Source: Isoetes taiwanensis (taxonomy: Eukaryota; Streptophyta; Lycopodiopsida; Isoetales; Isoetaceae). From it: a DNA stretch of 64,000 bases. Positions within the stretch are counted from its first letter, which is position 1. Each line of letters opens with the position of its first letter. The notes beneath the pieces are model-generated. The model did not search any database. It saw only the letters and a list, made by a program, of their open reading frames with translations, and was not told the origin of the DNA. Position numbers and translations under genes: made by a program. Where the stretch lies: NCBI GenBank assembly GCA_021234155.1, contig JAJEKV010000061.1, positions 2,195,950 through 2,259,949 on the forward strand, in the 5' to 3' direction. This document shows positions 2,759 through 57,904 of the stretch, one piece after another.

Positions 2759-4405
2759 TGTGACGCTCCCTACTAAACATACGGCACCCGGCCGTACACT
2801 CGGCAGGAAATCCCCCATCCGGCTCAACAACCGCACAGGCCCTTCGTCTACCCCGCACCTAAGGTGATCTTAGCGCGGGGAGGGGACACGAAGGTGTCTT
2901 GCGCGCCCTTCCCCTATGGGCTCCTATAACAGCGGAAGCGATAAACATGTCAGAACTAGCATCAACGGTACAAATACTACCTCGAAGGGTAGTCCATCAC
3001 ATATCCAAAGGTGCAAAGAACATAGCCGCATACCATAAAACGTGAGAGCTCCTACCCGTGGATCCGACACATAAGGAAGTCGGCCAAATTTGGATAGGCC
3101 TCAAGATAGAGCGTACGGAGTCATAACAATGGCGGGGCTGGCATAAGACAATGGCTAGGGTTGACCACTCCATCCAGCCCCTCCTGTGCATACTTTGCAG
3201 ATGGGCTAGATCAGGCTCGGCATGACTCTAACCTTCCGGATACGCAATCCCATGGCATCACCCATCGGGACTACTCCAGGTTGCATCTCCCTGGTCCGTC
3301 GAGGTAGGAAGGGTTGCATCTCCCCTTCCCGGGGTCTAGAGGCTCCACGGGCGGCTAGAGAATCGTGGCGACACCGCGATTAGTGCCCAGTGAACCCCCA
3401 AAACAAGAGCCAAGCTGACACTTGCAACTCTTGAGAGGCGGGGCAACACCTTAAGCCCGGGGAGGTGTCGGACCCATGCCCGCCCACACGCAGTGACCGC
3501 CATAAGCCTAGCCCACTATGGGATCCCCCCGTAGCCCCCCCCACTTTCGGCAGGGATCCTCCCTCCACATTGCCTCTAGCCCGTTGTGTAGTCTTTGAGT
3601 CACATCATAGCCTCCATAGCCCAGGTGGGTTCCTATGCACAGTCCGCAATCTACTAGGAACTAAGGGATCTATACTAGGAGCATACTACATATGGCCCTA
3701 GGTCTCTACCCCCCTTCCCAACACAAGAGGGACAAACATGATCAACCATCATCCCATAATCATCATGAACAATATCATATGAACATCTTAACCTAATCAT
3801 ACATATCTAACTATTAGTTAGGGTTCATTGATTAGGGTTCAAGATGTTCAACAAAGGATCTAGGGTGGCTCTACTCTAGCTACGAAATACTAACCCATCT
3901 GGAGTGCTAACTCCCAGATGAACCAACATGGACTCTACTCAACCTACCTCCTCCAGAAGCGCTTCCTCCCATCCCTGGCGTCTCCATGCTCCTTGACGTG
4001 GCTCGAAGACTTGCTCCCTCTACGATCATACACACCTTCTAGGGCTGCTGCTCCAGGCTAGGCTACGACGAACGATGCTCGAAACGGAGTTTCGGGCGCG
4101 TGGATGAGGGTTTAGGTGCTAGGTCAGGGAAAAAGGGTCTAGGGTTAGGGTTAGAGCTAATATAGGTGTGGGTCCACATGGGATGCCACGTGGCACCACT
4201 AGGATGAGGCCGTGTGGCGGTTGCCCAATAGGATAAGGCCATGTGGAAATGGGTCTTATCCTAAGGTTATCTAAGTTAAACAATTAACTTAGATGTGCAC
4301 CCCTTGCCACTTTCCAATGCATACAAGGCTACTCGGGTAGACTTGTATGGTGACGGTCGTCCAGGAATATACGTTATATATAGCGTATATTCCCCGAACG
4401 TCACA
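2759..4405 (-). repeat. 3' LTR of the Ty3/gypsy element
   Basis: The 1,647-bp copy runs from TGTGACG to CGTCACA on the plus strand. It aligns end to end with 14,344-15,982. The half from 3,620 to 4,330 is almost identical to its partner. Differences cluster in G/C-rich patches near 3,087-3,112, 3,366-3,398, 3,453-3,490 and 3,524-3,550. Near 4,370-4,394 is a palindromic stretch, GGAATATACG...CGTATATTCC, at the U3 tip. Confidence 0.95.
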
Positions 4406-4419
4406 TTCTCCCCCCCAGA
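4406..4419 (-). other. Polypurine tract
   Basis: On the minus strand a G-run followed by AGAA immediately precedes the 3' LTR start TGTGACG. This is the expected plus-strand primer for an LTR retrotransposon and fixes the element's orientation. Confidence 0.85.
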
Positions 4420-5304: not shown

Positions 5305-6136
5305 TCATGAACTCACGGGTATTGCTTCTCCAAATCTTGCTTTAATACCCGTCAAGTCGCGTCTTCCAGCGGCAAGTGTTTCCACTTGACCAAATCTTTG
5401 GAGGAACCGAGACCTCCTAGTCTTCTTGAATGACTTATCAAGAAGTAACTCAGGCACGATTTCTACTTGCTCTTCCGTCATTTCCAACAAAGTTGGAGTA
5501 TCCAAAACCTCCTCAGGGTTAGGATTGTGCATTTTTAATAAACTTACGTGGAAAACCTTGTGAACTTTGAGATGGGCCTGAAGATCCAACTTGTAGGCTT
5601 GGGAGCCCACTCTCTCCAAAATCTTGAACGGACCAGCCCACCTAGGGGCAAGCTTCTTGCAACTCCCAATCCGAAGCTTAGCTTGCTTGACCTTGATCTT
5701 CAACCACACGTTATCACCTACTTTGAACTCTCTTACGGTCCTGAGCTTGTCGGCTACACTCTTCTGCCGACTTCTTGCTGCTAGGAGGTAACCCCTCACT
5801 TCTTCCACCAACTCACTTTGCATATCTCCTAGCATTTGTTGGGACACCTCAACCTTTGACACGGATTGTGCCAAGTGTCCGGGGGTAAGCAAATCGGTAC
5901 CCGTAATTTACCATGAAAGGAGACATCCGAGATGACTCTGTTTGGCACTATTGTAAGTAATTCCACCAAGTGGATGTACTCCTCCCACTTGGACCGCTTA
6001 TTCCACACAAAGCTTCTAAGCATATCTTCAATGATTCGATTCGTCCTCTCCCGTCGACCATCTGTTTTGGGGATGATAAAAGTTTTGTGCTCATGGAGAG
6101 CTTAAATCTGAATGGTCTTTGAAGAGATCCTGCCAA
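5305..6136 (-). pseudogene. Integrase C-terminal part with GPY/F module and broken chromodomain
   Basis: This is the downstream continuation of pol, in shifted frames. Around 5,830-6,136 is the end of the integrase core. The 195-aa frame 5,305-5,892 contains the GPY/F module (LAPRWAGPFKILERVGSQAY) that plant chromoviruses have after the DDE core. It then runs into a chromodomain start (LLLDKSFKKTRRS). The rest of the chromodomain (LVKWKHLPLEDAT) is seen in the next frame at about 5,345-5,400 and ends at a TGA where the family has Trp. A chromodomain directs integration to marked chromatin in related elements. This copy carries at least one frameshift before the GPY/F part, one inside the chromodomain and one stop, so it cannot give a full integrase. 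Confidence 0.85.
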
Positions 6137-8328
6137 AAGGCACTCATAAACTTGGAATCTCTATCAGATATTATCTCCCGAGGCATGCCATGGAGCCTAA
6201 AAATCTCCTTCACAAATAGCTTGGCAGTATCTAATGCTGTGTCAGTAGTTCTACAAGGCACAAAATGTGCCATCTTAGATAATTTGTCTACTACGACCAT
6301 CAATGCATCCCTGCCTCGAAGAGTCTTGGGGAGTCCTGTGATAAAATCCATACTTACCACTTCCCACTTCGCATTCGGCACTGCTAGAGGTTCCAAGGCT
6401 CCTGGAATTCGAAGCTGCTCCGCTTTGGTTTGCTGGCACAACTGACACTCGCGAATATGTCTTGCTATCTGCTTCTTCATTCCCGGCCAGAAGTAGCTAC
6501 TTCGAATCTTGAAGTAGGTCTTCATAAACCCTGCATGCCCTGCTATTGGGCTGTTGTGTGTGTCATGGAGAATTAGCTTCCTTACCCCTGATGATTCGGG
6601 CACACACAACTTATGCTTATGATACAACAAGTTGCCTTCCTTCTTATAATGCTTGAAGGCTTCTCGTTCCTTATCTGTTCTAGCCTCTCTAGAAAGGCTT
6701 TCCCATACCTCCTTGAAATCACCATCGGATGGTAAAGTCTCCTCAATTCTCTTACCAAACTCACTCGAAAGAGTGGAAATCGCATTACAATGCGTTCTTG
6801 TCTCAAACGGTCTCCTGGAGAGGGCATCTGCCACAACATTAAGCTTACCTAGCTTATATACTATATCAAAATCATACTCCTCAAGGAATTCCATCCACCT
6901 CCTTTGCCTTAGGTTGAGGAGTGGTTGGGTGAAAAGATACTGGAGGCTCTGGTGATCAGTATCTAACTGAAACTTTCTTCCCAGCAAATAATGCCTCCAA
7001 ATCCTTAATGCTCTGACGATGGCTAAGAGCTCCTGATCATGGGTTGGGTAGCGTTGCTCGGCGTCGTTCATCTTCTTTGAGTCGTAGGCGACTACCCTTT
7101 CTTCTTGCATCAAGACTGCCCCCGTTGCTATCTTGCTTGCATCCGTAGCCACGAGCTTATCTTTACTCGGATCTGGAAGGACGAGCACTGGAGCTGTTGT
7201 CAAGGCCTCCTTGAGCTTCTCAAAGGAAACTTGGACTTTCTCTAACCAATGTGCTCTCCAATCTTTCACCTTAACACTCTTAGTGGGGTCCGTCAAAGGA
7301 GACGCCCACTTAGCAAAGTCCTTCACGAACTTTTTGTAATATCCCGCCAACCCGAGAAAGCTTCTTACTTCTGCTACATTCCTTGGAGCTGGCCAATCAA
7401 CTACTGCTTCTATCTTTGCGGGGTCGGTGGAAATCCCTTCCGCCGATATTACATGGCCCAAATACTCCACTCTTTCGGTAGCAAAGTGGCATTTGGAGAG
7501 CTTGCCATATAATCGATGGCGTCTCAGCTTCTCCAAGACTTTCCTCAAATGCTGATCATGATCTTCCATGGACTTGCTATAGACTAGAATGTCGTCGAAG
7601 AAAACAATGACAAACTCGTCTAGAAAATCCCTGAAGACGTCGTTCATGAGGCGCATAAAAGTTGCTGGAGCATTCGACAATCCAAAGGGCATTACTGTAA
7701 ACTCAAAGTGACCATACCGCGTTCTGAAGGCGGTCTTATGGATATCCTCTTCTTTTATTCTTATTTGGTGGTACCCTGACCTCAAATCAATCTTGGAGAA
7801 TACCTTTGCTCCTTGGAGCTGGTCCATTAAATCATCTGCCCTTGGCAAAGCATACTTGTTCTTTATCGTCTGTTTGTTGAGCTGGCGATAGTCTATGCAC
7901 ATTCTTAAACTGCCATCTTTCTTCTTCACGAAGAGTATGGGTGCTCCAAAAGGAGACACACTTGCTCTAATAAAACCGAGCTCAAGCAATTCCTGGAGTT
8001 GCTTCTTGAGCTCAATCAACTCCGGTGTGCTCATCCTGTATGGTGCCTTGCTGGTAGGCTTAGCATCTGGTGCTAATGTGATCTCACACTCCACACCCCT
8101 ATAAGGTGGTAGCTGCCGGATCTCATCCGGAAATACATCCTTGAATTCTGAAATAAGCCTAGCTACTGGCTTGGGCAATTGCTTTCCCTTTTGATCGTTT
8201 CCATCCTGCTTATTGGGCTCAATTGCCTCCAATCTCAAGATGTAATCCACCTTATTTCTTTCTATACTTTTCCTTAACTGCTTCAAAGAAATACACTGCA
8301 TAGAAGAAGCTGTCTTCTTACCTCTCAC
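6091..8328 (-). CDS. Pol: reverse transcriptase, RNase H, integrase N-terminus and core
   Basis: A 745-aa open frame. RT occupies about residues 125-300, with [25 protein letters not shown] and the catalytic box at 243-246, which reads FFDD rather than the usual Y-[IV]-D-D. RNase H is at about 390-505 with Asp396 (ATDAS), Glu433, Asp457 (TDH) and Asp501 (ADALS) in place. The integrase zinc-binding domain has His588/His598 and Cys628/Cys631, and the core has Asp661 and Asp722. The frame breaks soon after (residue about 737), before the third catalytic acid. It follows the protease directly, as in other Ty3/gypsy elements. Function would be cDNA synthesis and insertion; the broken integrase makes this copy non-autonomous. 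Confidence 0.95.
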
Positions 8329-8666
8329 TATGAATTCGGTGCTGTCATGGCGACTTCATTGCGGTCGCAGTCGATCATGGCTTTTGCTGGCTTTAGGAAC
8401 TCCATTCCTACTATAAGGTCATACCTTCCAATCTCCATGACCTCTGCCCCCATCGGCCACTTACTTCCACTAAGGTCTATGTCGAATGTGATCCTCCTCC
8501 CCTTAGTGTGCCGAATGGCGCCGTTTGCCATAGCAACTGGCCTTGGCTTAGACTTCAATACCTTGTTCTTCATTAGGGCAGCCAGCCTTGGAGAGGCAAA
8601 GTTATGAGAGCTAACTGTATCTATCAATACTAGGTATGGACTGCTATCTATGATCCCCTCGGCCAA
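8328..8666 (-). pseudogene. Retropepsin-like aspartic protease
   Basis: This 112-aa frame lies directly upstream of RT. The active-site region reads LVLIDTVSSHNFASPRLA where the family has D-[ST]-G, so the glycine is replaced by valine. The second conserved strand, YDLIVGMEFL, matches the usual [IL]LGM[DE][WF]L box. The altered triad suggests an inactive enzyme or a sequence error. It would process the Gag-Pol polyprotein. Confidence 0.8.
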
Positions 8667-8749: not shown

Positions 8750-10049
8750 TCATGCTTGGTGCGCCGTCTTCATCACCTTACGTTGGTGAATCCCAATCCA
8801 TAAGCTCTCGCCAAGGCTGCCTGCATGACCGAATGGGCAATCATGGGTTCGGTGCCCCCGGCCGGAAGCACACGAAACAAAGCTTCTTCTCAATACACTC
8901 TCTCTTCTCTTTAGATCAAACCGTCTAGGATACGCTTCAAAGACTGCTTGCCCCCGATGCATTCCTGCGGCTTCACGGTCCCCAAAGGTCTTACCTTGAG
9001 CTCTTCCTGCTGGCGGCCACGATGGCGTAGGCTGGCGATTGCTTACTCTGATGCGCCCTTGGTACTGCCACGAGCTTTGCCCCCTGAAGGCCGGCTTTTT
9101 TTTCTTTGGAGTTGATGGTGCTTCCTCCAAACTTATAGCTTTGTCTTCACTTACGCCCTTGACCTTGGGTTGATTGCTCTAACAAGCCTCTTGATATTCT
9201 TTGTTCAACCCTTCAATGTAGGTATCGACCGCTTGCCTTTTCGATACTCAGGAACATGGAGCTGAAGAGCGCATGAATTCCTCCGTATACTTTACTCTTG
9301 ACAATGTACCCTGGTTCAACCTATAGAACTGGCGGATGCACTTTTGCTGGTGTGCGATCTTGGCACATAGTGCTGCATGGAAAGCTTTCTTTGAAGGTCT
9401 TAAATCTGCAATTGTTTCTTTTGAGCTTATTAGACTTAGCATAGCCCTTCCACCGCATTCTAGCTGCTCCTATCAAGTTTGCTTTGTAGCAACTTTCCCT
9501 ATATCCTTGTCCTTCATGCTATAAGAGTTGCCAAATTCCTCCATCTCGTCAAGCCATGCTTCCGCTTCCATGCCTGACCTATCCTTTCCCGAGAACCGCC
9601 CAACTTCCTAGTCTTCCACACATTGCTCATAGCACTTGCCGACCTTCTTCGATAGTCATCTTCCTTTCTTGCCCCGGCTCTTACAGTGGAGTGCCCGACT
9701 CACTCTCCGAGGTAGAACTGTTCTGGGTGTCTAAAGTGTCCGATGAGCTGGAGCTAGGTGGAGTTGGAGATCTTCTGTTTTTCCTTTTCCTCTTCCTGTC
9801 TCTGACATTTCCCTCGGTTGTCTTGCCCCTCCTGCTGTGGACCTTCCTCAATGCCTTGCTGAGGTAGTGGTGGAGGTGGAGGTGTCTTGCAGTGCATATT
9901 CTTGGGCATTCATCAATGGGGTGGCCCAATGGATCAGGTGATGCATCGATTCCTCATCTGTACCAGCCTTTTGCGTTGATTGCCTCCGGGTCATTTCCCT
10001 CGTTGTTGTCATCCCCGATCACGTCCGGAATAGGTTCCTTGGTATCCAT
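8750..10049 (-). pseudogene. Gag, frameshifted
   Basis: The likely start is ATG at 10,047-10,049 (MDTKEPIPDVIGDD...). A basic, Ser-rich stretch follows (about 9,690-9,790). Then come pieces of a retrotransposon Gag domain in several frames, including NQGTLSRVKYTEEF at about 9,250-9,330. A CCHC zinc knuckle lies at 8,838-8,879. It is split by an extra base in the C-run 8,854-8,858, so its first half (CFVCFRPG) and second half (HRTHDC) are in different frames. Gag would form the particle and bind RNA. At least four frame changes are present. The homopolymer break may be sequence error. Confidence 0.75.
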
Positions 10050-10308: not shown

Positions 10309-11871
10309 TCAATGGCCTCCTGAAAGCCTAAAGAAATTCTTCACATCTCTGAATCGGAGGCCTTTGCCGAGGTTGCGCAGGATGTTCCTTGTCGATCCTC
10401 CCTCGAGTGCTCGCGCCATTTCCGGTTCCGGGAGTTCTGGTGCAGTTGCCGCTACTACAGAAAGTGATGCATCCCTGAGGTGGCCCCTAGCGAAGTCGAG
10501 GCAATGGAGCGCTACAGACCTCTTGAAAAGGATGACGTGATCTTCATGGGCGTATATCTTCGAATGCTGCCCGAAGCCCGAGAGTGCTATGAGAAGTGCC
10601 ACTGATTCTTCCCCCCTTGGACTGAACTCCTTGTGGAAGACTACCATTTGCCCTTGGCTGAGGGCTGGAAGATAGTAGCGTAGTGCCATGCCCTTACCTG
10701 TGCCTCGCGATCCCGTGCCTTTCCTTTGAGCCGCTCCGCCGTAGGCATCTACTGCCATAAGGTCTTCATGGTCTCTCCACATGCTGGTTGCATTGTCCAA
10801 GTTGATGCTACTGGACCCTTCCCTCATGCTCCTGGCTCGAATGTTTCGGGCTTGAGCTTGGGCCCCTCCCCGGTTTGTACGAAGGTGCTCTCAGTATCTG
10901 CTGGAACTCCTCCTCCGAAATGACAGTTCCTGCTGTCGATAGATTTCCTTATCTGGCGATAGGCCGCTATGTCGAACATTGTCTCCCCAAAGATAAGAAT
11001 GTCTCTCCGCCCGACTCCCTTGGAATCTCCCCGGTATGAATAGTCGATGAGGTCCGTGCTTTTCCCATGTGCTATCATGCCTAGAAGTTCGCCGATTCAA
11101 GTCCCCGCTCCTGGCAAGATGACAAGTTGAGGATGTCATTTGCTAGAATGTACTCCTCTCCGTCGATGACTATCGTCCATGACAGATCTTAGGCCGGTGG
11201 GCTCGGTGGCTTCTTCGATGTCGCCGTCGTGCCTCGACATGTACCTCTGCATTCTTGTCGCCTCTCTGCTCTCCCACTGGGGTTTTGCTCCCCTAGTTGC
11301 TCGTAGTCTTCGCCTATCTGCAGAATTGGTGCCCCGGCGTCATGCCATGGTGTTCATACGCGGAGGATTCTATATTGAGGATCTGCTCCTGGGCCCTACG
11401 GGTATCAAGTGGAGCTAAGTCTAAGGGCTGAACGGAAGGTTCCCCTACTTTGTTGATTGACTTATAATGCATGAAGAGGGCAAGGGCTGTCTGAGATGAA
11501 AGGTACCTATGCCTATTATGTCTGCAGGTCATATAATCTGGCATGGTCCTAGTCCTATCCCATAGCTGCTTCTTGCCTTTGGATCCTGCCATCTCTCGAC
11601 CTAAGGCTTGGGTGAGTGTCTCAAGAGAAACCCAATTCCCTCCCCTAGGGGGTAGTCTAACTTCCCAAGGTAGGACCTGTTGGTCATATTGGCACATGAT
11701 ATCTGTATAGTATGGTGTTCTAGACAGAGTTGCATGAAGATCAAACAGGTGGTCGAACACAGAGAAGGCTTGCTCAGCAGGAAGCTGATGGATATGGCTT
11801 GCAGCATTGTACCATCTCTCAAAGTTGCTGGGCGCCATTGAGCAAAGGAGGGTGCAGAAAATGGCTTGCAA
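10309..11871 (-). pseudogene. Extra ORF 2 of the retrotransposon, unknown function
   Basis: Three overlapping minus-strand frames read as one decayed protein of about 500 residues: 11,314-11,871 (start at 11,871 or at an internal MAPSNFERW), about 11,250-10,824, and 10,309-10,827. I do not recognise the first part (WVSLETLTQALG; TALALFMHYKSIN). The middle holds VIDGEEYILANDIL and, about 40 residues on, DYSYRGDSKGVGRRD followed by MFDIAAYRQI. The spacing recalls a BAH domain only faintly. The last part is rich in short hydrophobic helices. It lies between the H3-like ORF and gag on the element's sense strand, so it is probably element-encoded. It has no similarity that I can see to Gag, Pol or Env. 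Confidence 0.5.
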
Positions 11872-12137
11872 GGATCAGTAAGGAGTCAAAAAAATCGCCT
11901 AAGTGGCTGGGAGCAGTTCTGTGGAAGGGAAAATGACAAATGAGGCCCTTTTTATAGACTATGGTTGACCTCGGGATTCGTGCAAAAGGTTCCTAGATGG
12001 GGAAGACCTTGGTTCTATGGCTCTGGGTGTCCAATTGAGCTACCATGAAGTGCAAATCTAAGCAAAGCAAAGCAAGAAACACTACATGGCAGTTTGTTCG
12101 GTCGAATTTGGCTAATTTGGGTCGAAGATGGGCTGAC

Positions 12138-12642: not shown

Positions 12643-13765
12643 CTAGGGCCTCTCCCTGCGGATCCTCCGTGCTAAGTGAATGTCCTTTGGCATAAGGGTG
12701 ACTCTCTTAGCATGGATGGCACAGAGATTCCCTTCCTCAAAGAGCTGCACCAGCTCTGCTTCAGCAGCCTCTTGCAGGGCCCGGGACGTTAGAGGGGTGA
12801 TCCTATAATCGGTCCGGAACTCCTGCATGACTTCCCTAAGGAGACGCTCGAAGGGCGCCTTCCTTATGAGGAGATTTGTGCACATTTAGAAGTGCTTGAT
12901 CTCCCTAAACACCCGGGCGTACACACTGTTCGGCCCGTGGTGAACCCTTTTGGGTTTTTCCGGTCTAGGTGGGGGTGGCTTCGGCTGATTTTTCTTCGGC
13001 CTGCCGCCCTCCACGGCCCGCTGCACCTCTTGACGGCAATACCAATCGTTGTACCTCGTCCAACGACGGAGGTACTCCTTGTATGCCGCCATTTTTCGCT
13101 TGAATTCGCGATCCTGTCGGAGCGCGAATGCCCGCTCCCCTACCTTCTGCTTCTTCACCACTTTTGGTGGTTCTGGCCACTTAGGGTAGGGTGGCCTCAA
13201 GCGTCCGGGGTCCCCGTGCTTTGCTCCTCCTCCTCCTCGCCCGTCTCCCCCTTCCCGGCCTCCTCCTCTTCCACGAGGCTCTTCAATAACGGCGGTCCCA
13301 CTGGCCGTCGTTTTCTTCTCTTTGTCCTTCTTTCACGCGCTGAGCTCCAAACGCGCTCCCTCTTCTTCCTAGCAGCCTTCTCTTCCGGCCACTCCACAAC
13401 TTTTTCCTTGCCCTTCTTCTTAGGTGCTGAAGGGCCTGCCTCTTGAGTTTGGTGCTGCTGCTGCTGCCCACCATCCACCTGTTCTTCAACCTGTTCCTCG
13501 ACCTCGGTGTCCGGTCGAGGGCCCAAAGTGGCCGGGACTTCGCCCGGTTCTCACAGGTACCCGCCGATGAAGAGCTGCTGCTGGTGCTAGGTCGTCCTCT
13601 TGGCGTCATGATAGGTGTCGCCCGCTTCTTCTGGCGGAGGGAAGCTCCTCCTCTCGGCCGGTTGAAGGTGCTGGGGACCTTCTTGACATGCCGCATACTG
13701 CACTGCGCCATGGAGAGGTGGGCCTAGGGCCCGATCTTCACATAGGTTTGCTTGGTGCGTGCCAT
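12643..13765 (-). pseudogene. Histone H3-like protein encoded by the retrotransposon
   Basis: The ATG at 13,763-13,765 opens MARTKQTYVKIGP, identical to canonical H3 over its first seven residues, including Lys4. A TAG follows. The same frame continues (13,711-13,283) with a basic Ser-rich tail. The frame then shifts to 13,526-13,197 (Gln/Glu/Lys-rich), and again to 13,200-12,889 (Pro/Lys-rich). The end is a complete H3 histone fold: alphaN-like VYARVFREIKHF, alpha1 [15 protein letters not shown], alpha2 [18 protein letters not shown], then [16 protein letters not shown] and alpha3 [15 protein letters not shown] at 12,886-12,888 stands exactly where H3 has Gln (after REIRRY). The alpha1-alpha2 loop has H3 length, not the longer CENH3 loop, though KAPF and VTLM recall CENH3. 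The total would be about 370 residues against 136 for H3. It is the first ORF after the primer site, on the element's sense strand. The fold call is firm; the role is unknown. Confidence 0.88.
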
Positions 13766-14330: not shown

Positions 14331-14342
14331 GCTCTGATACCA
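14331..14342 (-). other. Primer-binding site, initiator tRNA-Met type
   Basis: The minus strand reads TGGTATCAGAGC one base inside the 5' LTR. This is the standard plant primer site complementary to the 3' end of initiator tRNA-Met. Confidence 0.95.
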
Positions 14343-14343
14343 T

Positions 14344-15982
14344 TGTGACGCTCCCTGCTAAACATACGGCACCCGGCCGTACACTCGGCAGGAAATCCCC
14401 CATCCGGCTCAACAACCGCACAGGCCCTTCGTCTACCCCGCACCTAAGGTGATCTTAGCGCGGGGAGGGGACACGAAGGTGTCTTGCGCGCCCTTCCCCT
14501 ATGGGCTCCTATAACAGCGGAAGCGATAAACATGTCAGAACTAGCATCAACGGTACAAATACTACCTCGAAGGGTAGTCCATCACATATCCAAAGGTGCA
14601 AAGAACATAGCCGCATACCATAAAACGTGAGAGCTCCTACCCGTGGATCCGACACATAAGGAAGTCGACCGACTGGATAGGCCTCAAGATAGAGCAGACC
14701 GAGTCATAACAATGGCGGGGCTGGCATAAGACAATGGCTAGGGTTGACCACTCCATCCGCCCCTCCTGTGCATACTTTGCAGATGGGCTAGATCAGGCTC
14801 TGGCATGACTCTAACCTTCCGGATACGCAATCCCATGGCATCACCCATCGGGACTACTCCAGGTTGCATCTCCCTGGTCCGTCGAGGTAGGAAGGGTTGC
14901 ATCTCCCCTTCCCGGGGTCTAGAGGCTCCACGGGCGGCTAGAGAATCGTGACGACACACGATTCGTACCCGACTGAACCCCCCAAAACAAGAGCCAAGCT
15001 GACACTTGCAACTCTTGAGAGGCAGGGCAACACCTTCGCCCCAGGAGGTGTCGGACCCATGCCCGGCCCACACGAAGTGACCGGCCATAAGCCTAGCCCA
15101 CTATGGGATCCCCCGTAGCCCCCACTCGGCAGGGATCCTCCCTCCACATTGCCTCTAGCCCCGTTGTGTAGTGCTGAGTCACATCATAGCCTCCATAGCC
15201 TGGTGGGTTCCTATGCACAGGCCGCAATCTACTAGGAACTAAGGGATCTATACTAGGAGCATACTACATATGGCCCTAGGTCTCTACCCCCCTTCCCAAC
15301 ACAAGAGGGACAAACATGATCAACCATCATCCCATAATCATCATGAACAATATCATATGAACATCTTAACCTAATCATACATATCTAACTATTAGTTAGG
15401 GTTCATTGATTAGGGTTCAAGATGTTCAACAAAGGATCTAGGGTGGCTCTACTCTAGCTACGAAATACTAACCCATCTGGAGTGCTAACTCCCAGATGAA
15501 CCAACATGGACTCTACTCAACCTACCTCCTCCAGAAGCGCTTCCTCCCATCCCTAGCGTCTCCATGCTCCTTGACGTGGCTCGAAGACTTGCTCCCTCTA
15601 CGATCATACACACCTTCTAGGGCTGCTGCTCCAGGCTAGGCTACGACGAACGATGCTCGAAACGGAGTTTCGGGCGCGTGGATGAGGGTTTAGGTGCTAG
15701 GTCAGGGAAAAAGGGTCTAGGGTTAGGGTTAGAGCTAATATAGGTGTGGGTCCACATGGGATGCCACGTGGCACCACTAGGATGAGGCCGTGTGGCGGTT
15801 GCCCAATAGGATAAGGCCATGTGGAAATGGGTCTTATCCTAAGGTTATCTAAGTTAAACAATTAACTTAGATGTGCATCCCTTGCCACTTTCCAATGCAT
15901 ACAAGGCTACTCAGGTAGACTTGTATGGTGACGGGTCCAGGAATATACGTATATATAGCGTATATTCCCCTGGAACGTCACA
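14344..15982 (-). repeat. 5' LTR of the Ty3/gypsy element
   Basis: The 1,639-bp copy is bounded by TGTGACG and CGTCACA, with the primer site directly inside it and AATTA directly outside. By family rule it holds the element promoter on the minus strand. The U3 tip carries the palindrome GGAATATACG...CGTATATTCC at about 15,939-15,968, which includes TATATATA; whether that acts as a TATA box is not shown. Confidence 0.95.
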
Positions 15983-16684
15983 AATTACAATGCCGTATAT
16001 TTACTGTCGGTTACTACTGCCATCGTCTCATATGCCTGGTCAGGTGAATATGCTGATTAGAAGGCATGATTTAGATAAGGATAAATGTAAGCAATATTTC
16101 AACTATGAGAGAAATATCCAAGAAATAGCATTCACATCTCCAACTTTCTCTTGAGATGCAATTATATACATGCATAGAAGATCATGCAAAGAAAATCTTC
16201 AGATCTGTAGCAAGTTCAAAGAAATTCTGCCTACGATATGCAAACACATGTAAAATTACGAAGTTTCCAATGTTGATAGTGATCTGCATGCACTCATAAA
16301 GGCATAACCTTGTGACAGTCATATAGAGCTGCAGAGATTCTTTAAATGTCCCATGTTGGCATGCACAACAGGGAATAAGATGAGATGTAAGAGGTGCAAT
16401 TCCTTTGGCAAATCACCATTCAACGTAATTCTTGCCATAATCAGCGTCAGAGACTTATGCTCATGGATAAGCCGTGAACATAAGTTTGCTCGCAATTGAT
16501 GAGAATAAGGAAAGAAGATAACCTAGAAAAGAGCTTAGCAACATTTTTGCAGATCGTTTTCATTGCAATTACAATGCCGTATATTTACTGCCGATTACTA
16601 CTCTATCATCTCATTTGCCTGGTCAGGTGAATATGCTGATTAGAAAGCATGATTTAGATAAGGATAAATGTAAGCAATATTTCA
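15983..16684. repeat. Right flank plus contiguous paralogue of the insertion site
   Basis: 15,983-16,110 continues the interrupted locus. 16,341-16,684 is a second, uninterrupted copy that joins the left-flank homologue to the right-flank homologue through a single AATTA at about 16,566-16,570. It shows that AATTA is the target duplication. The locus was therefore duplicated in tandem before the retrotransposon entered one copy. Confidence 0.85.
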
Positions 16685-17155
16685 ATTCCGTTAAATTCCC
16701 CTAGATTTCAAAAAAATTACCCCAAGATTCCTCTAGATTCTCTAAGATCCTATGAAGATTCTCCTAGATTCTTCTAGATTCTCTAAGATACTATCAAGAT
16801 TACTTCAAATTCTCAAAGATTTTAGCAATATTCCCCTAGATTTTCAAAGAATCGCTTGAGATTCCTCTAGATTATCTTGAGATTCCTCTAGTTCCCATAG
16901 ATTCTATGAAGATTCCCCTAGACCCCAAGATTCCTTCAAGTTTCCTCTAGGATCTTAAAGATTTTATCAAGATTCCTTTATATTCCCTTACATTCTCAAA
17001 GATGCTCTGTTGAGATTCCCATAGATTCTCTAAGATTCTCATGATATCCCTCTGGATTCTCTAAGATCCTGTAAAGATTCTTCTAGATTCCCTCAACTTA
17101 CTATAGATTCCTTGAAGCTCGAAGATTCCTAGAAGATTCTTAGTATTCGATCATG
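16685..17155. repeat. Degenerate GATTC-rich tandem repeat
   Basis: Phrases such as AAGATTCCTCTAGATTC recur with variable spacing (units of about 10-12 bp combined into about 25-35 bp). No ORF or RNA gene is apparent. It borders the 5' side of the LINE. Confidence 0.7.
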
Positions 17156-28307: not shown

Positions 28308-28616
28308 AGTCAACATTTTGAGTCCATTGGCAGAGTCAGTTCACAGTTCCGGAGTGAGAAAGTTGCTCGTCCATGGCCAGGGTTCTTTGGGAGAGGACCT
28401 TTGGGGCGAACTGCCTCCGAAAGGTTTTAAAGGTCCATCTTATGGCGTCAACACCCTCCCTCTACGTGATGACATTGTGCAAGATTTTGGTCGAATCTGA
28501 CTAGGATATAGCCTCCGAAACGTAAACCCTGTGTGTTGCTAGGTTATTGAAGGGTTTACGTTATGGGGGTCAAGTTTTAGTCGGTTGCAATTGGGTCATG
28601 GTTGAGAAGCTGCAAT

Positions 28617-29070
28617 TGGAGCCTAAGTGAGCCTGCATGGCATGTTTGAGCCTATGTGGCATGTTTGAGCCACCTAGGAATGTTGGAGCCTAGGTGGCAT
28701 GTTGAAGCCCACGTGGCATATTTGAGCCACCTTGGGAAGTTGAAACATAGGTGGCATGTTGGAGCCTGCGTGGCATGTTTGAGCACGTTGGAGCCTAGGT
28801 GGCATGTTTGAGCCATTTTGTCATGTTGGAGCCTAGGTGGCATGTTGGAGCCACCTTGGCATGTTTGAGCCTAGGTGGCATGTTAGAGCCACCTTGGCAT
28901 GTTGGAGGCCACGTGGCATGTTTGAGCCACCTTGGCATGTTGGAGCCTAGGTGGCATGTTGAAGCCCATGTGGCATGTTTGAGCCACCTTGGCATGTTGG
29001 AGCCTAGGTGGCATGTTGGAGCCCACGTGGCATGTTTGAGCCACTTTGGCATATTTGAGCTTAGGTGGCA
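28617..29070. repeat. 19-bp minisatellite array, left block
   Basis: Monomers such as GGCATGTTGGAGCCTAGGT and GGCATGTTTGAGCCACCTT alternate. Because 19 is not a multiple of 3 and the monomer lacks stops, long ORFs with 19-residue repeats arise on both strands; these are artefacts of the repeat. Adjacent monomers form GGTGGC...GCCACC hairpins. Block 28,617-28,905 recurs nearly unchanged at 34,056-34,345. Confidence 0.95.
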
Positions 29071-29790
29071 TCCGTCTTGACGCTCGAGATGTAAACCCTA
29101 GCAAACCCTAGGGTTTGATAGGGTTTACATTCCGGGATGTCTCGGCGACCCGTAGGGCCCGTGGATCGACGTGGAATACCCGCGGCCGGATTACCCTCAT
29201 GGCACTGGGAGACAGAGCCAAATTTCCCGGTGCAGCATACCTTTCGGAGACTCCCCTTCACAAGCCCCTTTCTAGTGAAGGGGAGTCTGGAAAAGCATGC
29301 TGCGCAGGGGGATTCGACCCCATCTCCGGGCATGGTCCCCGGAGCATACACAGAGAACTCCATGCAAAGTTTCGGATGTGTGAGTCTCCGTCTTGACGCT
29401 CGAGATGTAAACCCTACCAAACCCTAGGGTTTGATAGGGTTTACATTCTGGGGATGCTCCGATGACCCAGAGGGCCCAGGATCTGACGTGGAATACCCGT
29501 GCTGGATTACCCTCATGGCACTGGGAGACAGAGCCAAATTTCCCCTGCAAAGATACCTTTCGAGACTCCCTTCACAAGCCCCTTTCCAAAGAAGGGGAGT
29601 TTGGAAAAGCATGCCGTCGGTGGGGGATTTGACCCCATCTCCTGCATGGTCCCCGTGAGCATACACAGAGAACTCCATGCAAAGTTTCGGATGTGTTAGT
29701 CTCCGTCTTGACGCTCGAGATGTAAACCCTACCAAACCCTAGGGTTTGGTAGGATTTACATTCTGGGGATGCTCCTCTGATCAAGAGGGC
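29071..29790. repeat. Tandem units of about 315 bp with inverted AAACCCT cores
   Basis: Units start at about 29,071, 29,388 and 29,703 with CCGTCTTGACGCTCGAGATG. Each has a palindromic core built from AAACCCT...AAACCCTAGGGTTT...AGGGTTT and an internal hairpin near AAGCCCCTTTC...GAAGGGGAGT. ORFs on both strands are by-products. Confidence 0.9.
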
Positions 29791-32615
29791 CGTGGAACTT
29801 GTCCCCTAGGGTAATTTCGGCGCCCGGATGACATGGAGAGGTCGGATCGCCAATCCGGGGCCTCCTCCATGCCCCAAAATAAAAAACGTGGTCTAAACCC
29901 TGTCAGGGCCAACGGTGGCCATCCCAATCAAAAATCGAGGGTCTAAAGCTCACCCGAAAATACCGGGGATTTTCCTGTACGCTCGGGGCCACTTGGCAAG
30001 CCAGCTGGCTGAAAACCATGATTTTTTCCCGCCCCATGCATTAATCATGAATTTCCGGATCATAAACACAAAGAAAAGCGCAGATAAAAATCCGGGTCTC
30101 GAAAAAAGGTGAAATCTTGGCAAGATGTGCAGCATGACGCTGCACACGCAAGAGAAAATGCATTGGCAATAGAAGCACAAGCAGAGGCATGAGACGAAGC
30201 CCGAGCCAACCCCTTTCGGAGGCCACCGGCCCAGAACGCCCCATCGGGCGCTGGAGCTAGCTTTGCTTCTCCGTGGTCACATGTATACCACCTAGCAGTC
30301 CTAGTGCTGCTATTCTCACTTCGATCTTCTACCGTGGGCCTCGGGGTGACCCCAAGTATCTTGTTCTCGAGGCTAGTCCAAGCCAATGAGGGACGGCTGG
30401 ACCCCCACCGAATCGAAACCGGCTCGCCAATGGACCCTAACATCCCCATTACCTAGGAGACCAAGTTTCGGTGGCGTAAGACCACCCCTCTCCAAGAAAC
30501 GCCAAAGTAGGTCGCTTTACTACACACTTGTAGTCAATTGGCATGGAGGTGGATGCCAATACCTCCTAGTGGGGGTAAGTGATTGATCCCCCAGGAAAAC
30601 CGGTAGTGGAACATGTCCTCTAGGGTAATTTCGCCTCCAGCACGATGTGGAGAGGTCGGATCGCCAATCCGGGCCTCCTCCATGCCCCAAAATCGAAAAA
30701 CGTGGTCTAAACCACCGCCGGGGCCAACGGTGGCCATCCCAATCAAAAATCGAGGGTCTAAAGCTCGCCCCGAAAAATACCGGGATTTTCCCCAGACGCC
30801 GCGGCCACTTGGCAAGCCAGCTGGCTGAAAACCATGATTTTTCCCGCCCCATGCATTAATCATGAATTTCCGGATCATAAACACAAAGAAAAGCACGATA
30901 AAAATCCGGGTCTCGAAAAAGGTGAAATCTTGGCGGATGTGCAGCATGACGCTGCACACGCAAGAGAAAAATGCACCGGGCAATAGAAGCACAAGCGAGG
31001 CATGAGACGAAGCTTCCGAGCCAACCCCTTCCCGGAGGCCACCGGGTCCTGAACGCCCCACCGGGCGCTGGAGCTAGCTTTGCTTCTCCGTGGGTCACAT
31101 GTATACCACCTAGCAGTCCTAGTGCTGCTATTCTCACTTCGATCTTCTACCGTGGCCTCGGGGTGACCCCAAGTATCTTGTTCTCGGCTAGTCCAAGTCG
31201 GGGGGCGAGGACTGGGCCGACCCCCACTCCGGATCGAGAATTGGCTCGCCAATGGACCCGAACATCCCCATTACCTAGGAGACCAAGTTTCGGTGGGCGT
31301 AAGACCACCCTCCAAGAAACGCCAAAGTAGGTCGCTTTACTACACACTTGTAGTCAATTGGCATGGAGGTGGATGCCAATACCTCCTAGTGGGGGTAAGT
31401 GATTGATCCCCGGGAAAACCGGTAGTGGAACATGTCCTCTAGGGTAATTTCGGCGCCTCAGACGATGTGGAGAGGTCGGATCGCCAATCCGGGGCCTCCT
31501 CCATGCCCCAAAATCGAAAACGTGGTCTAAACCCCCGCCGGCCAACGGGTGGCCATCCCAATCAAAAATCGGGGTCTAAAGCTCGCCTCAAAAATACCGG
31601 GATTTTCCTGACGCCATGCCACTTGGCAAGCCAGCTGGCTGAAAATCAGGATTTTTCCCCGCCCCATGCATTAATTATGAATTTCCGAGCATAAACACAA
31701 AAAAAACACGATAAAAAAAACCGGTCTCAAAAAAAGGTGAAATCTTGGCAGATATGCAACATGACGCTGCACACGCAAGAGAAAATGCACCGACAATAGA
31801 AGCACAAGCGGAGGCATGAGACGAGCTTCCGAGCCAACCCCTTCCCGAGACCACCGGCCTTACACGCCCTACTAGGTAGTGGAGCTAGCTTTGCTTCTCC
31901 GCGGGTCACATGTATACCACCTAGCAGTCCTAGTGCTGCTATTCTCACTTCAATCTTCTACCGTGGCCTCGTGGTGAACCCCAAGTATCTTGTTCTCGCA
32001 GCTAGTCCAAGCCGAGGGTCGAGGACGGGCCGACCCCCACTCCTAATCGAGAACTGGCTCGCCAAATGGACCCTAACATCCCCATTACCTAGGGGACCAA
32101 GTTTCGTGGGCGTAAGACCACCCCCTCTCCAAGAAACGCCAAAGTAGGTCGTTTACTACACACTTGTAGTCAATTGGCATGGAGGTGGATGCTGAATACC
32201 TCCTAGTGAGGGGTAAGTGATTGATCCCCTGGGAAAACTCACCGTGGAACTTGTCTCCTAGGGTAATTTTGCCGTTCCGGACGACGCGGCGAGGTCGGAT
32301 CGCCAATCCGGGGCCTCCTCCATGCCCCAAAATCGAAAACGTGGTCTAAACCTTGTCAGGGCCAACGGCGGCCATCCCAATAAAAAATCGAGGGTCTAAA
32401 ACTCATCCGAAATACCGGGATTTTCCTATACTCTCGGGCCACTTGGCAAGCCAGCTGGGTGAAAACCAGGATTTTTCCCCGCCCCATGCATTAATTATGA
32501 ATTTCCTGAGCATAAACACAAAGAAAAGCATAGATAAAAATCCGGTCTCAAAAAAAGTGAAATCTTGGCGGGATGTGCAGATGACGCCAAGATACGCAAG
32601 AGAAAAATGCACCAG
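29790..32615. repeat. Tandem array of about 820-bp units, 3.4 copies
   Basis: The marker CTAGGGTAATTT occurs near 29,803, 30,619, 31,439 and 32,258. Every copy contains GAGGTCGGATCGCCAATCCG and CACTTGTAGTCAATTGGCAT. The fourth copy is cut at about 32,615 and joins sequence from the 315-bp unit (CCTTTCGGAGACTCCCCTTC). Copies differ mainly at G/C-rich spots. No conserved full-length ORF is seen across the copies. Confidence 0.92.
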
Positions 32616-49545: not shown

Positions 49546-50957
49546 TCAAGGCCAGTACTTTTTGAGGTATTTCAGGTTGGTAGGATTAGGAAGTAGCTCC
49601 AGGTCCATTTGTTGCAACCAATATGAGTGTTCACCAGCCCTTTTTGCTATCATATATGGGCCTTCCCAACGTGGCTGAAACTTCTTGACATGTTTCTCCC
49701 TATTCCACTTCATTACCAATTCATCTTCCTCAAATCCACTCTGCAAAAGCTTTTTCCTCTGAAAATAGACTTTGCCCTCTTAATTTGCATGTTCATTTCT
49801 GCCATCCATCTATCCTCCTCGAGTTGCATGATGTGTTCTAATCTAGCTTTCAGAGGATCATGTTCGTCTATTTCCATCTCCATAGCATATTTTAAGGTAG
49901 GCAACTCAATATCAATTGGGAGCAATGCTTTTGTTCCGTATATGAGATTAAAAGGAGAATAGCCTGTTGCTGACTTCCAAGCAGTCCTATATGCCCATAA
50001 TGCGGTCTCTAATTTGATATGCCAGTCCCTCCCGGTCTCATTCACTGTTTTCTTCAATATTCGTACCAATACTTTGTTACTAGATTCGGCTTGCCCATTA
50101 CCTTCTGGATAGTAGGAGGAGCTTTTAAGATGCTTTGTATGCAACTTCGCCACTAGTTCCGTAATTACACTATTTATAAAATGTGTACCCCTATCCGTCA
50201 AAATTTTCCTGGGTATGCCAAATCTGCAGCAAAGATGTGTAAAGATGAATCCGGCTGTATTCTCTGATGTAGCCCTCCTGAGGGGAACTGCTTCTGCCCA
50301 CTTGGTAAATAGATCAGTCGCCACCAAAATGTATTCATGTTGCGCTGAAGAATGTGGGTCAATAGGTCCTATATAGTCCAACCCCCACATTTGAAATGGC
50401 CCATCTGTTTCTATAGGGACCAATTCACCTGGGTGGAACTTTGCTGCTGCAAAAGCTTGGCATGCATGGCAATGCTTAATGTATTCTTGGCAATCTTGAT
50501 GTAAAGTTGGCCAGAAGTAACCAGCCCTAAGCACTTTTTTTGCTGTCATTCTTCCTGCCATATGGCCTCCACAAATACCTTCATAGCAATGAGCCATTGC
50601 TACACCCTGTTCTTCTTCATCTAGACACCGAAGCAATATCCCATCCATCGTTTTTCGACACAAGATATCTCCGACTAAAACAAAAGATAGGCAATTCAAT
50701 TTAAATCGTCGTAATGCCTTAGGAGACTTATCTTTAGGCGGCTCTTGATCTCTCAAATATATGATGATCTCGTGCATCCATGGCCGTTGTGCATCCACAA
50801 ATAGTTCTGAACTGATTTGTTCAATCCAAGTTGACTGAAAATGGACATATGACTCTACACTATCCCCTAAATCTGTTTGCACTTGTTCGATGTCTTCCTT
50901 TTGTTCTAAATCAAAATTATAGAATGCGTATGGTAAGTACTTACTTGGGTCTCGCAC
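49546..50957 (-). pseudogene. Integrase of the second Ty3/gypsy element
   Basis: The 414-aa frame (49,713-50,957) shows the zinc-binding domain (HCYEGICGGHMAGR; HCHACQAFAAAK) and the DDE core: WGLDYIGPI, KILTDRGTHF and YYPEGNGQAESSNKVL, so all three acids are present. A one-frame slip near 49,740 moves the C-terminus to 49,546-49,746, which has the GPY/F module (KFQPRWEGPYMIAKRAGEHS). It would insert cDNA into the genome. The break is single and near the end. Confidence 0.9.
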
Positions 50958-50963
50958 ACCGTC

Positions 50964-51371
50964 TTAAAGCTTCACTTCTAAGCAATATTCCTGCAGGATA
51001 ACAGCCCACTTATGCAACTTTGCTTTCTTGTAACTCTTGCTATAAAGAAGTGGTAATGGGTTTTGTTTCATGTACACCGTAATTTTTGAGTTGGAAAAAT
51101 AGTGGCCACATTTATCCACCAGGGATTTTAGAGCAGCTGCATATTTCTCCAGTTTGGGGTACTTCTCCTCTACAAGTGACCATTGCTTCCCTGCATACAT
51201 AACCACACTGCCCTGCTGACATAAAGCTATCCCGACTGCCCATCTTGTGACTGTGATATAAGCAGAAAATGGATGATCCAACGCTGGGGGAACTAATAGC
51301 TGCTTGTTTAACATTTTTTTTTTTGTTTTTGACCATGCATCATCGCATTCCTTTGTCCATTCTATCTCCAC
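50964..51371 (-). pseudogene. RT-linked (Ty3-type) RNase H, degenerate
   Basis: The frame begins in the RT thumb/connection (WTKECDDAWSKTKKKM). Where Ty3 RNase H has the first Asp (DAS), this reads ITVTRWAVGIALCQQ. The Y---EKE segment is YPKLEKYAAALKSL, and the TDH box is YMKQNPLPLL. First and third catalytic acids are thus missing. Together with the separate intact-looking RNase H upstream, this suggests functional replacement. Confidence 0.75.
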
Positions 51372-51381
51372 AAACTTGCTT

Positions 51382-52100
51382 CTACCCTTTGGTACATGCC
51401 CCTGTCTTGTTAACTTCGCAATAAGGTATGTGAGACATGTTCCGAATATACATCCTCAAGAAGCTCACCATTCCAATATGACCTTTGACTGCTTTCATGG
51501 TTTTAGGTGGTGTCATGACTTGGAGTACTTTCATTTTGTCTTCTGCAATGCGGATACCCTTTTCCGACACTTCATGACCCAATAAAACACCTCTGTCAGT
51601 TAAAAAAACACATTTGCAAGGATTTAAACATACCTCTGCATGCCGTAGTTGCTCCAAATGTTGGGACCTAGACGTTGCCAAGCATAAATCGTCCAAGAAT
51701 ATCCTAAGAAAATCTGATGGGATGTCCTTGAAAACTCTGCACATAACTCGTTGAAAGGCAGCGGGGGCGTTCATAAGGCCAAAAGGCATCCTCCTCATTG
51801 CGTATGTTCCCCATGGGATTATGAAGGAGGTTTTCGGTTGACCTCTTCCTTTATGTAGACTTGATTGAATCCTGAGAAGCCGTCCATAAATGAATAGGCT
51901 TCCTTACCTACCACAGTGTGAAGTATATCTTCAACAAATGGTAACGGGTAACAGTCTTTAAGTGTGGCCTTATTTAACTCTTGATAGTCAATGCAGATTC
52001 TCAGTTTTCCATTTTTTTTAGTACTGGCACTATGCATGATACCCAAGGTGGATTCTGTATTTCATAAATCAAGTCTGCTTTCAACATTTTCTGAATTTCC
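51382..52100 (-). pseudogene. Reverse transcriptase of the second Ty3/gypsy element
   Basis: Two frames: 51,819-52,046 has NGKLRICIDYQELNKATLKD and SFMDGFSGFNQV; 51,382-51,798 has MRRMPFGLMNAPAAFQRVM and IFLDDLCLAT (catalytic box FLDD). Frameshifts lie near 51,810 and 52,100. It joins the acquired RNase H ORF upstream. Confidence 0.85.
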
Positions 52101-52109
52101 TCTTGCACC

Positions 52110-53972
52110 CTATTCTTTATTCTTCGACACACCTTTCATTTCTCGCATAAGCAAACACCTATTGGCTTGGCCTCCCAGCAAGGTCGTCCTTTTCAGTTTA
52201 ATTTCAAATTCATATATATCCTTTGACACACCTTTCATTTCTGAATAGTCATAAGCAAACACCTCCGAATATTCTTGGAACAATTGAGCAAGGTCGTCCT
52301 TTTCCTGTGCATTAGCTAAGGTCCCCAAAGCTAGTTTCCTTTCTTGACCATTCTTCACAATAGTGATGTCAAAAATGTGCTCTTCACTTGCAACATCAAC
52401 AACGAGTATTGGATGCAATTTTGCTAAATCTTCTTCTTCTGTATCTTCCTCTTTAATCGCTCCCTGACAAAGATGATCAAATAAAGCAGCCTTGCATAAT
52501 GCATCAGCCTTTGAATTTTCTTTGCGTGGCACATGACTTATTTCCCAAAAAGCAAAACTTCCTAGTTTAGCATGGACTTCATTACACAATTGCAATAGAT
52601 GTTCATTTCTAACTCTATAATCCCCAAGGACTTGATTGCAAACTAGCTGTGAATCGCCTTTGATATGGAGATGTGTGATGCCACATTCTTGTGCAACTGT
52701 CAGATCAGCCAATAACGCTCTATACTCTGCTGCATTGGACGTGCAGCCATGGAAGATATCTCCTTTCTTTGCGAGCACTTCCATCTTCTCATTTTTTAAT
52801 ACAATCCCCATGCAAGCTAGCTGTAACTTTCTAGAAATCCCGTCGTCGAACCATAAACATGCATGTTTTTCAGCTTCATCCTCCTTTACTATCGCAACTT
52901 GGTTTACTAGCAAGTGATCATGAGTATTACTAGACATCACCCTTGTTACCTCTTTGTTGATGACAAAATTGCCCATCCCTTCATAAGATATCATATCCTC
53001 TGTCTCTATAAAAAACATTCCCCCATTATTCTCTTCATCACTTTTTATCTTACCCTCTCTGTTAAAAATATGTGACACTTTCGTTCCATTGGAGATACTG
53101 TAATAGCCTCCACTCCATACTGGTCTAGCATCAACAGACTTCATCCATCTTCTACCCAACAATAAATCGTAGCTTGTGGGCTTACTTGGATCGTCGTAGG
53201 ATGGTACAACAACAAAGTTTGCCACTACCAATATCTCCTCGACTATCGCTGGGACATCTGTTACAATTCCAATAGGCTTCACTTTATGACCGGAAAAGGT
53301 TCGAAGTATCTGCATAGTGGGCTTATTCACTTTTAATCCAAGCTGCATCATCACATTATATGGCATGACATTAGACCCAGATCCTCCGTCTACATAAATC
53401 CTTTCCAAATGTTTCCCTTTAATTGTACCTTCACACTCGAAAATACCGGGGTCTTCTGCAGCTTCGTTCACTATTATAGCACTTACTAGGCATTCCTCAT
53501 CAACATTCTCGGTACAGTTTACACAACTCTCACGATTCTGTTCCATTAAGTCTAGCAATTTCTGTTTGTATGATGGGGCGACTTTCAGCAAGGTTAACAG
53601 ATCCATCCGCACACTTGAGCCCTTTAACAATCTTTCCAAATCATGTGGCCCTTCAGTTTCTTCTGTTCTCTTGGGTGCAATAGGTAAGTTAGGTCTTAGG
53701 TGACCTAAATTAATGTCAGCAGTAGAATCAGACATTTCCAGACCACCTTTAGGCGAAAATCTTGCATGCTTTGCGAGTGGTATGACGTTATTTTCTGCAT
53801 GCGTATGTTGATTCTTCACTGCTGTATGGTCAGACATTTCACAATGATGAGTGCGACTTTGTTGCCTTGTAAGTACATTGAAGACTTCATCTTCTTGTTC
53901 ATCTTCCACATTTTGTTCTATCAGATTGATATTTGCACTTGAACTTGTGCTTGCACCTTTGTTTTTTCCCAT
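52110..53972 (-). CDS. Protease plus acquired cellular-type RNase H (620 aa)
   Basis: One open frame. Residues 1-110 are a linker after the Gag zinc knuckles. The aspartic protease is at about 180-280 with active site YVDGGSGSNVMPYNV (Asp195) and LLLGRRWM. At about 370-500 is a cellular-type RNase H: WFDDG (Asp376/377), NAAEYRALL (Glu416), GDSQLV (Asp440), HVPRKENSKADALCK (His480, Asp490). All four catalytic acids are in place. Residues 560-610 lead into RT (LFQEYSEVFAYDYSEM). Near 52,124-52,265 a short segment is duplicated (ACACACCTTTCATTTCT twice, about 95 bp apart), which displaces the frame before RT. In the Tat group the acquired RNase H is usually described after RT; here it lies before it. 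Confidence 0.88.
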   Translation of the reverse strand: MGKNKGASTSSSANINLIEQNVEDEQEDEVFNVLTRQQSRTHHCEMSDHTAVKNQHTHAENNVIPLAKHARFSPKGGLEMSDSTADINLGHLRPNLPIAPKRTEETEGPHDLERLLKGSSVRMDLLTLLKVAPSYKQKLLDLMEQNRESCVNCTENVDEECLVSAIIVNEAAEDPGIFECEGTIKGKHLERIYVDGGSGSNVMPYNVMMQLGLKVNKPTMQILRTFSGHKVKPIGIVTDVPAIVEEILVVANFVVVPSYDDPSKPTSYDLLLGRRWMKSVDARPVWSGGYYSISNGTKVSHIFNREGKIKSDEENNGGMFFIETEDMISYEGMGNFVINKEVTRVMSSNTHDHLLVNQVAIVKEDEAEKHACLWFDDGISRKLQLACMGIVLKNEKMEVLAKKGDIFHGCTSNAAEYRALLADLTVAQECGITHLHIKGDSQLVCNQVLGDYRVRNEHLLQLCNEVHAKLGSFAFWEISHVPRKENSKADALCKAALFDHLCQGAIKEEDTEEEDLAKLHPILVVDVASEEHIFDITIVKNGQERKLALGTLANAQEKDDLAQLFQEYSEVFAYDYSEMKGVSKDIYEFEIKLKRTTLLGGQANRCLLMREMKGVSKNKE

Positions 53973-57102: not shown

Positions 57103-57148
57103 GCTGTTTCAGCACATTATGCTTAGTCAGCATATTTATATTCCAACA

Positions 57149-57884: not shown

Positions 57885-57904
57885 CTTAGCAGCTCCACTG
57901 TATC

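Follow-up and report, generated by a model that had tools for sequence, protein, structure and literature searches.

An H3-like protein encoded by a family of Ty3/gypsy LTR retrotransposons in Isoetes taiwanensis

In plants, H3-based silencing is directed to a large extent at LTR retrotransposons, some of which read H3 marks. Parasites also carry histones and histone mimics, such as the H4 of bracoviruses, the histones of giant viruses, and the ARTK-like end of influenza NS1. In plants, orchid Ty3/gypsy elements carry an ORF for an AlkB-type m6A demethylase, as described in the available sections of PMC9289625. A screen of 121 angiosperms found 15 non-canonical domains in plant Ty3/gypsy elements, about nine of which are named in those sections, with no histone among them (PMC9289625). 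Other plant Ty3/gypsy elements, for example some OTA elements, carry an additional ORF 5' of gag, as does the locus described here; in the available parts of the two sources, these ORFs either have no known function or code for RNase H, and no histone is named for them (PMC6317226, PMC10508981). The word histone is absent from the main text of the I. taiwanensis genome paper (PMC8566536) and from PMC7264820, and it occurs once in PMC6317226, for chromodomains. Full-text literature searches, with a coverage lacking most subscription journals and preprints, named no transposon-encoded histone in the listed titles or in the first part of abstracts. LTR elements with captured domains are already known; what appears to be new in this study is that the captured domain is a histone, with both its tip and its fold.

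The window, that is, the whole stretch of 64,000 nucleotides of I. taiwanensis DNA analysed here, contains a 13.2-kb Ty3/gypsy LTR retrotransposon on the minus strand, and all parts of the element named below lie on that strand. Alignment of the 5' LTR (14344-15982; 1,639 bp, TGTGACG...CGTCACA) with the 3' LTR (2759-4405; 1,647 bp) gave 24 mismatches over 1,631 aligned sites, a divergence of 1.5%. At the grass rate of 1.3e-8 this corresponds to about half a million years, which is a guess for Isoetes. The target site duplication AATTA is found on both sides of the element (15983-15987 and 2754-2758). The primer-binding site TGGTATCAGAG lies at 14332-14342, and a polypurine tract recognized by eye, GGGGGGGAGAA, adjoins the 3' LTR at 4406-4416. 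ORF1 (12643-13765) is followed by ORF2, of which pieces of 186 and 193 aa are open in the window copy (10309-11874; ORF table and relatives), and then by broken pieces of the gag region (8750-9953; ORF table), for which Retrotrans_gag/Ty3_capsid matches were obtained in the relatives L019 and L022. Pfam matches identified the aspartyl protease (PF08284, 8328-8687) and the RT, RNase H, and integrase (H2C2 and rve, the latter slightly below the curated cut-off; 6091-8355). Paired LTRs, a short target site duplication, a tRNA primer site, and the series of protease, RT, RNase H, and integrase, with gag upstream as seen in relatives, place the element in the Ty3/gypsy group. In the relatives, gag has capsid and zinc-knuckle-like regions and is separate from ORF1, with ORF2 between the two, which in L019 is uninterrupted over 440 aa. 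ORF2 had no Pfam match at the curated cut-off, and its single-sequence structure model was uninformative (pLDDT 40.0). The end of the integrase (5308-5907) contains an SH3-like domain (PF24626) and then, on our reading, a chromodomain-like motif near 5355-5462. An earlier note on this DNA had placed a chromodomain in the same element; what the window copy has is a chromodomain-like motif split over two frames, and Pfam reported the SH3-like domain and no chromodomain on the C-terminal pieces of the integrase.

Several other repeats were observed in the window. Directly outside the element is an 81-nt direct repeat (16022-16102 and 16605-16685, 96% identical). The left flank of the element (about 2565-2758) resembles 16340-16575 by eye, and therefore the insertion seems to lie inside an older duplicated stretch. 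A second, broken Ty3/gypsy element lies at 49713-54113 on the minus strand, with an RNase H-like domain (PF13456, 7.7e-18) in an ORF ahead of the RT matches. Its arrangement is like that of Tat elements with an additional RNase H, as these are described in the available part of PMC10508981. The stretch 55131-57885, also on the minus strand, contains a Ty1/copia-type RT (PF07727, 55134-56432) and a gag piece (PF03732, 57139-57885). Tandem repeats occupy 28572-29799, with an array of 19-bp period and a roughly 316-bp unit that is present three times.

ORF1, at 12643-13765 on the minus strand, encodes an H3-like product, as seen from the ORF table, Pfam, and the sequence itself. It starts with MARTKQT, the start Met followed by H3 residues 1-6 (13745-13765), and ends in an H3 fold (12646-12885). 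The last 80 residues matched the Pfam Histone family PF00125 with an E-value of 9.3e-29. Searched against solved structures, the fold matched H3 chains (E 6e-29), and the best 60 chains listed were all H3 of the canonical type. The alpha-N part of the fold in the window copy lies immediately 5' of the stop at 12886-12888. Between MARTKQT and the fold is a charged linker of about 265 residues with Lys/Arg-rich runs, which stands in place of the continuous H3 tail with K14, K18, K23, K27, and K36 and brings the protein to about 370 aa, compared with 136 aa in host H3. The window copy is interrupted by stops at 13724-13726 and 12886-12888, with at least two frame changes in between. The earlier note had described the MARTKQT start, the full H3 fold at the ORF end, the two in-frame stops with frame changes, and the position of the ORF on the sense strand of an element with paired LTRs and a target duplication, and all of this was confirmed; the observation proved larger than first reported. 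The assembly was made from Nanopore reads with Illumina polishing, according to the available part of PMC8566536, and since it is Nanopore-based, assembly errors may account for some of the frame breaks in repeats. Single-sequence modelling of the fold gave a structure of low confidence (pLDDT 48.5), which lends no support. Chance similarity of the fold to H3 was ruled out by the Pfam match. A host H3 gene or retropseudogene was also ruled out: host genes are 96-98% identical to a canonical H3 query over 136 aa, the ORF1 fold is only 60-67% identical to host H3 over 91 residues, and the LTR lies upstream of the ORF in 19 of 20 copies.

We then considered copies across the genome. The host had been taken for a fern, but I. 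taiwanensis is a lycophyte. The searched genome comprised 1,658,258,908 bases in 1,110 contigs; the assembly is given as 1,658.30 Mb in 204 scaffolds and 909 contigs in the available part of PMC8566536. With the 80-residue fold as a query, the best 150 of 8,420 first-look candidates were scored, and all 150 matched at 87-100% identity. Counted from the list, 40 of these 150 lie in open frames of at least 350 aa, with the tail in frame in some but not all. Besides the window copy, 40 copies were read: 9.9-kb stretches of the 20 nearest (L009-L028), and ORF stretches of a further 20 picked for long frames (L029-L048). Tail and fold were joined in a single open frame in 4/20 of the nearest copies and in 16/20 of those picked for long frames. 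In the 20 long stretches, the window LTR was found upstream in 19 (80.8-97.1% identity, one match covering only 208 bases) and the primer site, allowing one mismatch, in 15; downstream of ORF1, ORF2 was present in 19 and pol matches in 16. Genome-wide, there were 2,727 sites encoding MARTKQT and 2,090 encoding the H3 motif CAIHAKRVT, and the reversed-pattern control gave 0 in each case. Thus, the H3 segment is by no means restricted to one copy, and a one-off capture was ruled out by the 150 scored copies, the shared ORF2 downstream, and the genome-wide sites. Among viral contigs, five stretches matched a pattern and none coded for a relative.

The spacing of the two motifs was analyzed for the first 100 listed MARTKQT sites (contigs C1-C165), using the 74 CAIHAKRVT sites among the matches listed up to contig C165. 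An exact CAIHAKRVT was located 974-1054 nt downstream in nine cases and at 330 nt, the spacing of host H3, in two; the other 89 had no exact CAIHAKRVT within 2.5 kb. The sites without a nearby fold motif can be accounted for as old copies that have decayed; they may also belong to a further family that has the tail but a diverged fold.

A second H3-carrying family emerged from the search with canonical H3. Among the best 150 matches, 15 places encode full-length host-type H3 at 96-98% identity over 136 aa. The other 135 matched at 71-86% identity, most of them over about residues 25-135, and many lie in open frames of more than 420 aa. Three of these 135 loci (L061-L063) were read and define family B, as distinct from family A of the window copy. 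The ORF of family B starts with MAITK, continues for about 290-315 residues without a Pfam family, and then encodes H3 from about residue 36 to the end; ARTKQT is missing, and the fold is identical to host H3 at 78/91 residues. Within the H3 part, the three copies showed 28 synonymous and 0 nonsynonymous differences, and the N-terminal part gave dN 0.044 and dS 0.306. The 5'-terminal 500 bp of L061 are themselves repeated at dispersed sites (40/40 among the best 40 scored of 989 candidates). In 901 bases sampled about 5 kb downstream of one copy, RT/RNase H is encoded on the same strand, with 70% DNA identity to the window pol. A related element thus appears to carry an H3 fold at a similar place with a different N-terminus, as far as the pol sampled at one copy indicates. 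Not every H3-carrying family therefore requires the tip, as family B has the fold without ARTKQT.

Nei-Gojobori dN/dS in the 20 open copies was 0.17 for the tail, 0.18 for the linker, 0.08 for the middle, 0.16 for the hinge, and 0.058 for the fold (bootstrap 0.033-0.097). The values are thus well below 1 for both tail and fold, the pattern for which the earlier note had proposed looking, and neutral evolution among copies is contradicted. Differences in the fold at codon positions 1, 2, and 3 amounted to 5.3, 2.3, and 25.7%, with out-of-frame controls of 4.4 and 5.1 (19 copies, L047 being left out for a gap). The fold ratio stayed at 0.030-0.056 across all four divergence bins, one of which is a single pair. 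When the window copy was compared with the long copies over matches of at least 55% identity and at least 60 residues, the ratio was 0.079 for the fold (20 loci), 0.345 and 0.460 for the two ORF2 pieces (15 loci each), and 0.260 for pol (14 loci). These estimates are biased, because fold similarity was the means of finding copies and the 20 open ones were chosen for open frames and MARTK. The choice of copies does not account for the constraint on the fold, because a dN of 0.03 at a dS of 0.5-0.6 is too far from neutrality.

The tail lies outside the search query, and the copies were found through the fold alone. Exact MARTKQT is present in 35/41 copies, the window copy included, and the remaining six have MAHTKQT, MARTKQI, MPRTKQT, or MARTKCT, or, in two, no such start. 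In the 38 copies with at most six DNA mismatches, minor fractions over the heptad were 0.008, 0.008, and 0.252 at codon positions 1, 2, and 3, so that the tail heptad is near-invariant at the first two. Compared with the H3 N-terminus ARTKQTARKS, the following residues are looser: position 7 is A in 13/38, Y in 23/38, and L in 2/38, R8 and K9 are kept in 32/38 and 34/38, S10 is not kept, and position 10 and the next three vary widely. The ARTKQT tip is the stretch contacted by H3K4 readers and writers. Since the heptad is near-invariant and its neighbours are looser, selection acts most strongly on this stretch. As judged from the copies compared, both ends of ORF1 are under purifying selection, and the linker in place of most of the H3 tail is more variable.

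Family A keeps much of the H3 core. Its fold is identical to host H3 at 55-61/91 residues, and the 19 gap-free A copies agree with both host H3 and family B at 49/91 columns. Fifteen of 15 named contact residues (R63, K64, R69, R83, C110, H113, K115, R116, T118, D123, L126, R128, R129, I130, and R131) are the same in all of these, and R72 is kept in 17/19 A copies; in H3, such residues serve in H4 pairing, H3-H3' contact, and DNA contact. In the 19 A copies, K56 is replaced by M or Q, K79 by R or Q, and Y99 by E, and the stretch 86-90, which chaperones sense in H3, is also altered.

ORF1 is strongly constrained at its two ends and varies more between them, and this is best read as a protein with an H3 tip and an H3 core. 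It is likely that ORF1 works through mimicry of H3 on chromatin in some form. We think it probable, with moderate confidence, that it is a retrotransposon-encoded H3 variant, and that it would act on the chromatin of the host through two ends that both imitate H3. In such a mechanism, the fold would pair with host H4, because the H3 residues for this pairing and for the H3-H3' and DNA contacts are mostly unchanged. The pair of ORF1 and H4 may enter nucleosomes, or compete for assembly chaperones, by an altered route, since the stretch 86-90 differs in the compared copies. The free ARTKQT tip on its long charged stalk would engage readers or writers of the H3K4 type, and chromatin of the element might in this way stay transcribable or attract integration. 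We propose only tentatively that ORF1 is an assembled nucleosomal variant with an anti-silencing effect, and the changes at K56, K79, 86-90, and Y99 could impair nucleosome assembly. Slightly more speculative is the scenario in which a Ty3/gypsy group took up H3 long ago and its thousands of H3 variants form element-specific nucleosomes, whose H3K4-type tip keeps copies active or draws integration. Against the best reading are the small number of nearest copies with the whole frame of tail and fold (4/20), family B without ARTKQT, and the 89/100 listed MARTKQT sites without a nearby CAIHAKRVT.

A soluble ORF1 protein might instead occupy H3 readers, H3-modifying enzymes, or H3-H4 chaperones and so block silencing marks, for which entry into nucleosomes would be unnecessary. 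What is nearly invariant is precisely the short tip recognized by proteins of this kind, the internal H3 tail from K14 to K36 is swapped for an unrelated linker, and the 86-90 stretch and Y99 are altered. However, such a decoy has no obvious need for a fold at a dN/dS of 0.06 with most DNA-contact residues kept, and family B retains the fold without ARTKQT; we regard it as unlikely, although it is the strongest of the alternatives. Somewhat less likely still, ORF1 may mark or tether chromatin and lead the pre-integration complex of its own family there, possibly through the integrase chromodomain. The SH3-like domain and chromodomain-like motif of the same element's integrase are consistent with this, and retrotransposon chromodomains that read H3K9me are known, as described in the available part of PMC3350952. 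The lack of a Pfam chromodomain in the window copy argues against it, and so do R8 and K9, which are kept less strictly than ARTKQT.

Two further explanations are improbable to a similar degree. In one, ORF1 would be a basic/acidic Gag accessory protein whose histone fold compacts element RNA or cDNA and aids nuclear entry, which would suit the highly charged linker and the position upstream of gag, but the element has a separate gag, and ARTKQT would be left unexplained. In the other, the fold would descend from centromeric H3 and serve centromere targeting. By eye, HFQ..TNLLI and VTLM are common to family A and the Arabidopsis CENH3, and a grouping of A with CENH3, although absent from the best tree, was not rejected (p-AU 0.306, none of the CENH3 rows being from the host). 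Grouping A with B was not rejected either (p 0.282), and the two share just F54 and P135 against host H3, so that A and B may stem from a single capture of H3 or from two. By contrast, loop 1 of family A is by eye as long as in canonical H3 and two residues shorter than in the Arabidopsis CENH3, and the best solved chains are of canonical-type H3. The broken state of the window copy and of most of the 20 nearest copies would fit a neutral passenger, a piece of host H3 that the element had picked up by chance. We rejected this explanation, which is extremely improbable, on the fold dN/dS, the codon-position pattern, and the constancy of the tail heptad; a constrained H3 part in two families also stands against it.

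An H3-encoding family whose tip and fold are both selected would amount to a nucleosome-level counter-move, and a single protein would then suffice for testing the arms race between transposons and chromatin. If the scenario of element-specific nucleosomes is true, a mobile element would be writing its own chromatin with its own histone. In I. taiwanensis, repeats contain far more H3-like coding motifs than host H3 genes do, a point of importance for annotating histone genes. ORF1 resembles canonical host H3 in its MARTKQT start and in the 49/91 fold columns common to host, family B, and 19 A copies, but differs from it in length, in a fold identity of 55-61/91, and in the charged linker that replaces tail residues from about 10 to 36. 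Viral histones and H3-tail mimics are likewise encoded by parasites and act on host chromatin, an action that is here proposed; those belong to viruses, whereas here a plant LTR retrotransposon joins the H3 tip and the fold in one protein. The orchid AlkB elements also represent a plant Ty3/gypsy lineage with a host-derived regulatory domain in an additional ORF, kept through many rounds of copying; in contrast to the present family, they encode an RNA demethylase and not a histone, occur in other plants, and belong to a Tat/Ogre-like clade, as far as described in the available sections (PMC9289625). Chromoviruses share with this family the Ty3/gypsy type, a chromodomain-like motif at the integrase end, and a link to H3; according to the available part of the source, they read H3 marks, whereas the family of the window encodes H3, and its own chromodomain is only putative (PMC3350952).
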